Assembly (NCBI RefSeq): GCF_000687835.1
Contig: NZ_JHYB01000002.1
Location: forward strand, 372,001-436,000
DNA: 64,000 bases
From: Haploplasma modicum ATCC 29102
Lineage (GTDB): Bacteria > Bacillota_I > Bacilli_A > Acholeplasmatales > Acholeplasmataceae
Direction: 5' to 3'
The notes under the pieces were generated by a model, which saw nothing but the letters and a program-made list of their open reading frames with translations, was not told the origin of the DNA and did no database searches. Both the position numbers and the translations under genes were made by a program. Of the stretch, positions 2,464 to 7,295 are shown one piece after another (position 1 is the stretch's first letter; each line of letters opens with the position of its first letter).

Positions 2464-3804
2464 TTACTCTCCACTTGGTTCAAAATGTTCTTTAACAATA
2501 AATCTTGAAAATGATGGTTCAAATTTATAATGAAGTGTTATTCCTGATTGACCTTGACGGTTTTTGGCAACACTTAATTCCACATCTCCAGTTTTTTTAC
2601 TCTCATCATGAACATAATAATCTTCACGATATAAGAATAGTACAATATCGGCATCCTGCTCAATACTTCCTGATTCCCTTAAATCAGCTAGTACTGGTTT
2701 TTTATCATCACGTGTTTCAACTGAACGTGATAGCTGAGATAAGGCAATAACTGGAACTTTAAGTTCTCTTGCCATTTGTTTTAATCCTCTTGATATTTCA
2801 GCAACTTGTTCTTGACGATTACTTTGACCTCTCGCTGGTTTAATTAATTGTAGATAGTCAATAATTACAATTTCTAAATTATCTTCTTGTTTTAATTTTC
2901 GACACTTTGCTCTAACATCACTAATTGTTACAGCAGCTGAGTCATCAAAGAAAATATTTAAATTCTTAAGAATTTGTTCACTTGATGTTAAACTTGCCCA
3001 GTCATTACTATCTAAGAAACCAGATTTTAATTTATTCCCTGGAACATCAGCTTGATTAGCAATCATTCTACTTGCAAGTTGATCATTACTCATTTCTAAA
3101 CTGAATATTGCAACCCCAGCTTTTCCACTTTTATTTTTCTTAGCAACATTTAAAGCAATATTTAAGGCAAAGGCACTTTTACCCATTGAAGGTCTCGCAG
3201 CAAGAATTATTAATTCTTCTGGTTGAAGCCCATTAGTTATTTTATCTAGATTAGAAAATCCGGTTTTAAGTCCTGAAACTTCACCTTTATTCTTACTTCT
3301 TGTTTCCAATATTTCTCTAACTTCAGTAACAATTTGCCCTAGTTTAGAAAACTCACTAGTTTTTCTTTTTTGGCTAATTTTAAAAACTGCTGCTTCTGAT
3401 TCATCAATATAGTCTTTAGCACTAATATCATCTTGATAACCTTTTTTTGTTATCTCACTTGAAACTTCAATCATTTCACGTTTTAGTGATGCATCTAACA
3501 CTAAGTTAATATGACTATCTAAATTACTTGTTGTATATAAATGTTCACTAACTTCCATAATATATTCAATCCCACCAGCCTTACCGGTAGTTTTCGCTTG
3601 TTCGAGTCTAGAAAAAACACTAGCATAATCGATTGATTGATTATCATTATATAAATCAAGCATTGCAGTATAAATAAAACGATGTCTTGAATCAAAGAAG
3701 TCTGTTACAAGTAACTTATCATTTACTTCATTCATTATTTTATTATCTAAGAAAACTGAAGCTAAAACAGCTTGTTCAGCTTTTAAGTAATTTGGTAAAC
3801 TCAT
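2464..3804 (-). CDS. dnaB: Replicative DNA helicase
   Basis: Hexameric fork helicase (446 aa, normal length; called DnaC in Bacillus). The N-terminal DnaB domain (to about residue 105) is followed by a RecA-type domain with Walker A ARPSMGKSA (about residue 205), Walker B IVIIDYLQL and the late motif SGSIEQDADIV. The start codon lies one base after the stop of the gdpP-rplI gene, with a purine-rich CAGGGATAAG in front. The order rpsF-ssb-rpsR-gdpP-rplI-dnaB/C is the conserved Bacillus arrangement, which confirms the identity. Confidence 0.97.
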   Translation of the reverse strand: MSLPNYLKAEQAVLASVFLDNKIMNEVNDKLLVTDFFDSRHRFIYTAMLDLYNDNQSIDYASVFSRLEQAKTTGKAGGIEYIMEVSEHLYTTSNLDSHINLVLDASLKREMIEVSSEITKKGYQDDISAKDYIDESEAAVFKISQKRKTSEFSKLGQIVTEVREILETRSKNKGEVSGLKTGFSNLDKITNGLQPEELIILAARPSMGKSAFALNIALNVAKKNKSGKAGVAIFSLEMSNDQLASRMIANQADVPGNKLKSGFLDSNDWASLTSSEQILKNLNIFFDDSAAVTISDVRAKCRKLKQEDNLEIVIIDYLQLIKPARGQSNRQEQVAEISRGLKQMARELKVPVIALSQLSRSVETRDDKKPVLADLRESGSIEQDADIVLFLYREDYYVHDESKKTGDVELSVAKNRQGQSGITLHYKFEPSFSRFIVKEHFEPSGE

Positions 3805-3805
3805 C

Positions 3806-6250
3806 TTATCCCTGCTTTTCTATTACATTTATTTCGATTTTTGCTTTTACATCCTTATGTAGTGAAATAATTGCTTCATATGTCCCTATACTGTTAATTT
3901 CACTTTCTAGTTCAATTTTTTTACGATCTAAAACAATTCCATTTTGTTTATCAAATTCTTCAGCAATATGTTTAGTTGTAACACTACCAAACATTTTACC
4001 TGAATTACCTAAATCAATTTCAATTGTAACACTCTTACTTTCAATTTCACCTTTTAGTTTCTTCATTAATTCTAAATGGTTTGCTTCTTTTTTTAAGATT
4101 TCTGCTTTTCTGTCATTTAAAGCTTTAACATTTTCAGCACTTGCAACAATTGCTTTTCCTTCTTTAACTAAGAAGTTTGCATAACCTAGTGCTACTTTTA
4201 TAATATCGTCTTTATTTCCTCTACCTTTAACATCTTCTAATAAAATTACTTCCATTTCTTCACCCTCTGTTCCATATTCCATAAATAAGTATTCTTTTAT
4301 ATTATTTATTACTTCATCAACTGTTTTATTTTTAATTTGGGCTGCTGCACTATTTAAGTGACCGCCACCACCAATATGTTCCATTACAAGTTGCACGTTT
4401 ACATCATTTAAACTTCTTGCACTAACTGCTATTACATCTTCAACTGGGGCAACCGTAAATGCTGCATCAATCCCATCAATCAGTAGTGCTTCATCTGACG
4501 CTTGTGCTAATAATATTCTATCAATTTGTTCATCACTTGAACTAAGTAACATAAATCTATCTAAATATAAATTGCCATTAGACAATAGTTTATTAATACT
4601 TAGTGTTCTGTTTAAATCTTTTCTAAGCCAAGATTTAACTAAATTTGGATCTGCTCCTAATTCCCTAAGCTTAAATGCTACTTCAAAGGTTCGTGTATTT
4701 GTTCTAACAGTAAAACTATTTGTATCTAAAACTAGACCACCATACATTATGTTTGCCTCAAGTTGAGTAATTTCATTTTTCTTATCGTTATAAAAATCAA
4801 TCATTTCCATTAATATTTCGATAGTTGAAGATGACGATGGTTCAACAATTGAAAATACTGTATCAAATCCTTCATCACCAACTCGGTGATGATCAATTAC
4901 AATTGTTTTTTTAGATTTTGCTAAAAGTCCTTTATTCATAATTATTTTAGGTGTCTGAGTATCTACTACAATAAGTAATGATTCATCATTCATTAAATTT
5001 ATTGCAGCTTCACTACTTACAACATTTTCATAAAGTTGATTATCACTACTATAAAGATTAAGTATCTTTGTAGATGTGTCATCCATCTTGTCTAAATCAA
5101 TTACTTTATATACTTGTTTATTATCTAGTTTTGCCATACGATAAACTGCAATTGTTGAACCTAGTGAATCTAGATCTCCTAAATTATGACCAACTACAAA
5201 GACGTTTGGTGCTTTTTTAATATACTCTCTTAAAGTTTCTGTATTTATTCTGGCATTAACACGACTAGATTTTGCAACACTATCACTTTTTGCCCCAAAG
5301 AATTCAATTTTTTTATTTTCGATATTAACAACTGCTTGATCTCCACCACGTTTTTCAGCAAGTTCAATTGCACTTTGAGCACGGTTACCCACTTCTTTTA
5401 ATGAGCCATCCCATGAAGCAACCCCAATTGATAATGTTACTCTAATATTATGGTTTTTAGAAATCATTCTAACTTTATCTAAAATATCAAATTTGTTAAT
5501 AATCATACTTTCAATATTTTTTCTATCTGTTATAAACATTAGGCTATCTTCAGAAAGTGGTTTTAAATAACAATCAAATTTATCTAACCAATCGTTAATT
5601 GAAGAAAGGTATGACCCTTTTAAACTTGATTGTTCAGAAATCTCTAAACTAGATAGTGACTCTTCTAAGTTATCTAAATAAATAATTCCAATTGCTTGAA
5701 TACTTTCATTATATTTTAATTTTATTTGTTCTCGCTCTGTCACATTAAACAAATAAGCATAACGATACTCTGGTTCATTAATAACATCATAACTCTCTTC
5801 ACCAATAGTTATAATACCTGTTTTTTGGTTATCTGATATGATATCATAAAATTCTTTTGAAATATTAAAAATGTTTTCATCAATGATTCTATTTTGTAAA
5901 AATATTTTACTTGAATGTTTATTACTCCACTTAATATCAAAGTTATCATCATAAATAACAATCCCAATTGGCAAAATATTTACAACCTCATCACCAATTT
6001 CACTAATATTCATCGATAAATTTGCCCAAACATCAAGCCTATCTCTTAATTTTTGATTTTCTTTACTTCGAGAATTAGTTAAATAAGCAAATACTGTAAC
6101 AACAAACAACAAGCCTGTTAGATTGATAACTAAATAACTTATAAGAGATTTAGTATTACTCTTTAAAAATGTTAGAATTGGACTATAAAAGATAAAAATT
6201 CCAACACCAAACAAGAGAAATGTAATTATTAGTGGTAAATATTTCTTCAT
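3806..6250 (-). CDS. gdpP-rplI: Cyclic-di-AMP phosphodiesterase GdpP fused to ribosomal protein L9
   Basis: One 814-residue reading frame joins two normally separate neighbours. Residues 1-665 are a complete GdpP: two membrane helices (about 5-25 and 38-57), a PAS-like region, a degenerate GGDEF domain (RGGDQ at 301-305), a DHH domain with [10 protein letters not shown] (355-364), DTQTP (430) and DHHR (453-456), and a DHHA1 domain with GGGGH. GdpP hydrolyses c-di-AMP at the membrane. Residues 666-814 are a full-length 149-residue bL9 beginning [18 protein letters not shown]. The junction EYGTEGEEM has no stop. The ATG of the L9 part (position 4255) keeps its own Shine-Dalgarno GAGGGTG seven bases upstream. 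I infer that free L9 is made by internal initiation and that a fusion protein may also exist. A single-base sequencing error is unlikely to be the cause, because both parts are intact and in frame. Confidence 0.93.
4253..4267 (-). promoter_or_regulatory. Internal ribosome binding site and start codon for L9 inside gdpP-rplI
   Basis: On the minus strand GAGGGTG (4267-4261) is followed after five bases by ATG at 4255-4253, in frame with the long gene. Translation from here gives 149 residues, the normal length of bL9. This is the sort of site expected if L9 had simply lost the stop codon of the gene in front of it. Confidence 0.6.
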
Positions 6251-6316: not shown

Positions 6317-6346
6317 AAAAAAGAAAACACCTTTATAAAAGGTGTT
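6317..6346 (-). terminator. Terminator of the rpsF-ssb-rpsR operon
   Basis: AACACCTTTTA pairs with AAAGGTGTT and is followed by a T-rich tail on the minus strand, eight bases past the rpsR stop. It separates the ribosomal protein operon from gdpP-rplI. Confidence 0.85.
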
Positions 6347-6354
6347 ATAATTTA

Positions 6355-6591
6355 TTATTCATTAACAAATGGTAATAAAGCCATATGTCTAGCACGTTTG
6401 ATTGCTACTGCTAGTTGTCTTTGCCATTTTGCACTTGTTCCTGTAACTCTTCTTGGTAAAATTTTGCCTCTTTCATTAATAAATCTTCTTAATAATTCAG
6501 CATCTTTAAAATCGATATGAGTTACTTTGTTTTGTGTAAAATAACATACTTTACGGCGTCTTTTAAAACCGCCTTGACGTTTTTGTTGCAT
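6355..6591 (-). CDS. rpsR: 30S ribosomal protein S18
   Basis: bS18 (78 aa, normal length), which binds S6 on the 30S platform. The family signature is clear: [24 protein letters not shown] followed closely by basic residues and ARHMALLPF near the end (only parts quoted). It is the last gene of rpsF-ssb-rpsR, 15 bases after ssb, with AGGAGG in front of the ATG. Confidence 0.98.
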
Positions 6592-6606
6592 ATTTTTTTC
6601 CTCCTA

Positions 6607-7002
6607 TTAGAATGGTAAATCGTTATCTGTGATTATTGAACCACTTAAATTACTGAACTCATCATTATTATCATTACTCTTTTGTGTTTTTGATTCTAAA
6701 AATTGAATAGAATCTGCAACTACATCAGTAGTATAACGAGTTCCTTGGTCTGTTTCGTATGAACCAGTTTGAATTCTCCCTTGAAGACCAATTTGTGAAC
6801 CTTGTTTCATAAATCTAGCTAAGTTTTCAGCTTGATTTCTCCACGCAATACAATTAATAAAATCTGCTTGTCTTTCTCCACTTTGATCAGCAAATGATCT
6901 ATTTACTGCCAAAGTAAATCTAACATAAGAAATATTAGATTGTGTTTTCATAAGTTCTGGATCTTTAGTTAGTCTTCCTACTAACACTACGTTATTTATC
7001 AT
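6607..7002 (-). CDS. ssb: Single-stranded DNA-binding protein
   Basis: SSB (131 aa). The OB fold occupies about residues 1-105, starting [17 protein letters not shown] with the typical [17 protein letters not shown] segment. A short low-complexity linker leads to the acidic tip TDNDLPF, which recruits replication and repair proteins. It sits between rpsF (2 bases away) and rpsR, as in Bacillus. Confidence 0.97.
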
Positions 7003-7004
7003 AG

Positions 7005-7295
7005 TTATTCTCCTGCTTTAACTACAATAAAACGCATTACTTGTTCATTGATTCTTACAACACGGTTAAATTCGTCGATTGCTTCATTTGTAGCTTCAAC
7101 TGATAACCATACGTAGTAACCTTTTTTGTTATGATCAATTTCATAAGCAAGGTCTTTTAAACCAATTTGTTTTAATTCAACTACATTACTATCATGTGAT
7201 GTAAATACGTTGTTGAATCTATCAATAATTTGTTTAATAACTTCACCTTCAACATTTGGGCGAATAATATACATTACTTCATATTGTTTTTTCAT
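7005..7295 (-). CDS. rpsF: 30S ribosomal protein S6
   Basis: bS6 (96 aa, normal length), partner of S18. It starts [18 protein letters not shown] and contains [20 protein letters not shown] (split quotation), the standard S6 core. AAAGGAGGAAG precedes the ATG. First gene of the operon, with a clear promoter and a short structured leader upstream. Confidence 0.97.

Follow-up and report, generated by a model that had tools for sequence, protein, structure and literature searches.

The neighbourhood of gdpP and rplI, the genes of the c-di-AMP phosphodiesterase GdpP and of ribosomal protein L9, is widespread in Firmicutes, and to our knowledge there is no accepted reason for it. Unfused gdpP has been described as co-transcribed with the L9 gene and with more downstream genes (PMC3711813, PMC5575661). 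The in-frame joining of a metabolic enzyme to a ribosomal protein has been described for IspH and ribosomal protein S1, whose “Rosetta stone” fusions (IspH-RPS1) occur in many bacteria; the words “internal” and “Shine-Dalgarno” are absent from the text of that report (PMC4746011). Genes within genes that possess internal in-frame starts are represented by the long and short Rpn proteins and by Cas10d/Cas11d (PMC10327210).

The locus investigated here is located in a window of 64,000 nucleotides from Haploplasma modicum ATCC 29102. It shares its gene order with the gdpP-rplI-dnaB/dnaC operon that Bacillus, Streptococcus and others possess in unfused form; however, in the unfused operon gdpP has its own stop codon and L9 lies mostly in another frame, whereas neither is the case at the fusion locus. 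The following elements have been identified:

3806-6250, minus strand: gdpP-rplI fusion ORF of 814 codons, with a TAA stop at 3808-3806
4256-6250, minus strand: GdpP part, residues 1-665 (Pfam)
within the GdpP part, residues 5-22 and 34-92: N-terminal helices of the structure model, whose confidence is low there
within the GdpP part: PAS (residues 83-170), GGDEF-like (190-314), DHH (349-505) and DHHA1 (573-655) domains (Pfam)
4256-4276, minus strand: short linker, residues 659-665, containing the Shine-Dalgarno (SD) sequence of L9 (delimited by the model and by synonymous constraint)
4261-4267, minus strand: SD-like GAGGGTG of L9, ending five bases 5' of the L9 ATG
3809-4255, minus strand: L9 part, residues 666-814, with an internal ATG at 4255-4253 (PF01281, PF03948)
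2464-3804, minus strand: replicative helicase gene dnaB, unfused, with its ATG one base past the fusion stop
6326-6346, minus strand: terminator-like hairpin between rpsF-ssb-rpsR and the fusion gene
6355-7295, minus strand: upstream ORFs rpsF, ssb and rpsR (S6, SSB, S18), named from sequence without a family scan

Reading of the 814-codon ORF reveals no internal stop between the GdpP and L9 parts. All six domains, PAS_GdpP, GGDEF_GdpP, DHH, DHHA1, Ribosomal_L9_N (666-711) and Ribosomal_L9_C (729-810), score over the Pfam cut-offs, and the catalytic DHH/DHHA1 residues (H355, D359, D361, D430, D453-H455, D509 and the GGGH motif G628-H631) are invariant in the fused relatives. Hydrolysis of c-di-AMP is predicted; the same genome also encodes one diadenylate cyclase domain. 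The L9 part is a full-length bL9 with complete N and C domains (TIGR00158, 112 bits at a cut-off of 58.6); it is the sole L9 detected in the Haploplasma modicum genome, and its placement in the ribosome is predicted. The whole protein belongs to the NCBIfam equivalog NF011110 (865.8 bits at a cut-off of 707, residues 31-813, spanning both halves). The earlier note had described GdpP and L9 as sharing one frame, with both parts full length and intact in their motifs and with a good SD before the L9 start, and the present analysis bears this description out. In the AlphaFold model of the fusion each half is well folded (mean pLDDT 82), but at a pTM of 0.37 the model is not informative on how GdpP and L9 are placed relative to each other; the final GdpP helix extends to residue 660 and the first L9 strand begins at 665, leaving a linker of about four residues. 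An internal promoter for L9 is not indicated, promoter-like sites being rarer than in shuffled sequences. Elsewhere in the window, positions 61-2417 hold an ABC transporter permease (61-939), its adjoining ATPase (923-1837) and a guanylate kinase-like ORF (1875-2417), all named on the basis of sequence.

A survey of relatives, as proposed in the earlier note, recovered the same in-frame fusion at 221 loci, including isolates, complete genomes and independent MAGs, and showed the internal SD to be conserved in relatives; Acholeplasma laidlawii, Onion yellows phytoplasma and Ca. Phytoplasma mali are among the complete genomes and isolates. The deletion of a stop codon by a sequencing or assembly error, which might be suspected in a 10-contig assembly such as this one, is refuted by this recurrence and by the existence of an NCBIfam family for the fusion, and its probability is negligible. 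In the Acholeplasmatales, all L9 copies among the matches listed with uncut upstream sequence are fused, with the exception of two free copies (genomes G038 and G339); the named fused members include A. laidlawii, A. oculi, A. granularum, Paracholeplasma, Peloplasma, Anaeroplasma and many phytoplasmas. Beyond this order the fusion is present in at least five more families of the class (f9, f16, f19, f23, f24), and the families f7, f10-f12, f15, f17 and f20-f22 of the class are unfused. No independent fusion was found in further families within a sample of the phylum. Nearly all fused genomes have no L9 besides the fused one.

Some candidate frames have been set aside. The long frame of G077 is unfused, its GdpP frame of 669 codons stopping ahead of L9; for the long frames of G385 and G405 a stop is reported inside the match; and the short frames of G006, G023, G311 and G313 are truncated at the ends of contigs. 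One phytoplasma contig (G306) contains two equally scoring L9 matches, C1:328029-328460 (plus strand) and C1:454127-454558 (minus strand), both in 874-codon frames, which stem either from duplication of a segment or from the assembly.

The fused/split label is explained by one change and no reversal on a 161-row GdpP tree constructed with fasttree, although the low support (49) of the branch parting fused from split rows means that the number of fusion origins is not firm. In the unfused relatives, L9 is out of the gdpP frame in 31 of 37 cases. The loss of one stop codon, by which the fusion had been explained in the earlier note, is therefore a sufficient step only with an ancestor of the in-frame type, and is insufficient as a general account.

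The start of L9 within the fused frame bears several signals of translation initiation. In the 221 fused loci the first L9 codon is ATG in 196, GTG in 24 and TTG in one, with no other codon found; since GTG makes up only about 15% of the Val codons in the fused genes, a merely coded valine would not yield GTG alone. In Haploplasma modicum, the SD duplex energy at the L9 start is -10.9, compared to values from 0.8 to -5.6 at the 13 other in-frame gdpP ATGs. Across the fused genes, the median pairing with the 16S tail is -10.85 kcal/mol at the L9 start and -1.8 at 2934 other in-frame gdpP ATGs, an energy of -8 being attained by 93.5% of the L9 starts and by 1.9% of the internal gdpP ATGs. Pairing is also stronger at the real junctions than in synonymous recodings of the peptide that they encode (p 3e-13, with relatedness ignored). 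In 82 independent close pairs, the codon is kept at identical amino acids in 74% of the cases (0.74) in the linker versus 56% (0.56) upstream, with maxima at codons -5, -4 and -2 (0.85, 0.79 and 0.85, respectively; background 0.56). The internal SD is weak in some phytoplasmas (L178, L179, L242, L252; -3.8 to -5.2), in which the dnaB SDs are weaker still; these phytoplasmas may depend less on SD pairing. A conserved start codon with its SD inside an ORF is the sequence signature of a gene within a gene, and on this ground both products are predicted.

These signals bear on the explanation that the full-length fusion is the sole product, serving as ribosomal L9 on membrane-tethered ribosomes or releasing L9 through a protease. 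Such an arrangement would agree with the continuous ORF and with the absence of a separate L9 gene from nearly all fused genomes. It would not account, however, for the internal SD and start codon, the synonymous constraint, or the replacement of ATG by GTG and TTG, and a stoichiometric supply of L9 solely via a membrane enzyme would presumably be costly; we consider it very unlikely.

The signal for the fusion itself is the conservation of its frame. The relative frame of gdpP and L9 is unchanged in 221 of 221 fused loci. The junction between L9 and dnaB in the same loci was used as the control: its relative frame takes all three values (82/60/75), and in the fused rows of the tree (51/29/41) it has undergone at least 37 changes compared to none for gdpP/L9, a control which is imperfect in that its spacer is longer than the tight gdpP/L9 junction and that the SD also constrains the gdpP/L9 linker. 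If the stop codon was lost neutrally, nothing but free L9 and GdpP would matter, and read-through would be tolerated noise. A strong and conserved internal start, the separation of L9 and GdpP in relatives, and the small number of linker codons that could turn into a stop are all compatible with this explanation. Nevertheless, it is at odds with a frame held at every fused locus while the neighbouring junction shifts repeatedly, and with the same gdpP/L9 junction not being frame-locked in the unfused relatives, most of which are out of frame; we regard neutral loss as unlikely.

The variation of the L9/dnaB frame between relatives leaves an L9-DnaB read-through product unsupported. A GdpP-L9-DnaB triple fusion was likewise rejected, since the “open frames” of 1250-1300 amino acids result from reading through the L9 stop and all L9s stop before dnaB. 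In many Acholeplasmataceae (e.g. L003-L009, L012, L016) L9 ends with GAAAAGTAGG and is followed in frame by dnaB, without a further stop; the TAGG at the L9 end may double as part of the dnaB SD.

A duplication of L9 provides a natural experiment. The genomes G038 and G339, of one genus, encode a fused L9 followed by a free L9 in tandem (L056 and L162; L056:4154-5093). On the L9 tree the fused and free copies from the two genomes fall into a single group, which indicates a duplication inside that lineage; it constitutes one event, in two genomes with multi-contig assemblies. The SD energy is -8.3 for the free L9 but -1.3/-1.9 for the fused L9, which has thus lost its SD while remaining open and in frame with 146-149 residues. 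Between the two genomes, dN/dS is 0.115 for the fused L9, 0.135 for the free L9 and 0.148 for the GdpP part; judged by these ratios, the fused L9 is under purifying selection despite the loss of its SD. Of 20 residues kept in 90% or more of a set of 254 other L9s, the fused copy has lost seven, including K2 and G24 of the N-domain, and the free copy three. A third candidate for a duplicated L9, G341, was rejected, as the second match there consists of an L9 tail located on a different contig, and the SD of its fused copy is normal.

Such a split of SD and conserved residues would be expected had a single frame met two needs which were then separated. After the duplication, free L9 would be produced from one copy and GdpP-bound L9 from the other. 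Loss of the SD where a free L9 exists is what would be expected if the SD makes free L9, and argues against the fusion as sole product. Purifying selection on an SD-less fused L9 that coexists with a free copy speaks against neutral loss; together with the constancy of the gdpP/L9 frame beside a drifting L9/dnaB frame, it leaves unsupported the alternative offered in the earlier note, that the stop codon was simply dispensable.

The explanation that we consider probable is that one frame gives two selected products, the GdpP-L9 fusion and an internally initiated free L9. Initiation at 6250 would yield the membrane-anchored c-di-AMP phosphodiesterase GdpP with L9 at its C-terminus, and initiation at the conserved internal SD and ATG (4255) would yield free L9 for the ribosome. 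Selection for free L9 would follow from the lack of a second L9 in the genome, and selection for the fusion would be reflected in a gdpP/L9 frame that is kept without exception; both proteins would be expected to accumulate. Most likely the fused L9 has a role of its own, either in placing GdpP at ribosomes or in providing GdpP with a regulatory or assembly domain. The second role is slightly preferred, because in the lineage with the duplication the fused copy has lost conserved N-domain residues; as the N-domain is the rRNA-binding one, this loss is also mild evidence against simple tethering to the ribosome, an idea raised in the earlier note, in that lineage. It may further be proposed, tentatively and with considerable doubt, that the fused L9 puts GdpP at the ribosome, or lets it sense the ribosome or its assembly, so that the breakdown of c-di-AMP is coupled to translation throughout the clade while internal initiation supplies ordinary L9. 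Were the fusion to dock at all, the linker of about four residues would place the phosphodiesterase directly beside the L9 site.

A large clade of wall-less bacteria has thus joined GdpP and L9 and, within the sample, never separated them. A connection of c-di-AMP turnover with the ribosome can therefore be tested directly in Acholeplasma laidlawii, which is cultivable, and the clade offers an unusually clear case of a single frame with two apparently selected products. The fusion also alters the counting and annotation of L9 in phytoplasmas and related genomes.

Among the known systems, NF011110 / PRK14538, a “putative bifunctional signaling protein/50S ribosomal protein L9”, is identical to the protein described here in domain order and full length. 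The NF011110 record, as displayed, names the fusion only and, unlike the present analysis, contains no internal start, selection or mechanism; the collection of literature that was searched yielded no paper discussing the GdpP-L9 fusion. IspH-RPS1 and GdpP-L9 are both in-frame fusions of an enzyme with a ribosomal protein, although the proteins differ. Rpn and Cas10d/Cas11d likewise combine a full-length protein with a separately translated C-terminal product in one frame; in contrast to them, the short product of GdpP-L9 would be a ribosomal protein, and both of its products are predicted from sequence. The fusion itself was known beforehand, as were enzyme-ribosomal protein fusions and internal in-frame starts as kinds. 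As far as could be found, what is new is the evidence that the fusion is selected, that an internal start is conserved alongside it, and that the two roles have been separated in one lineage.
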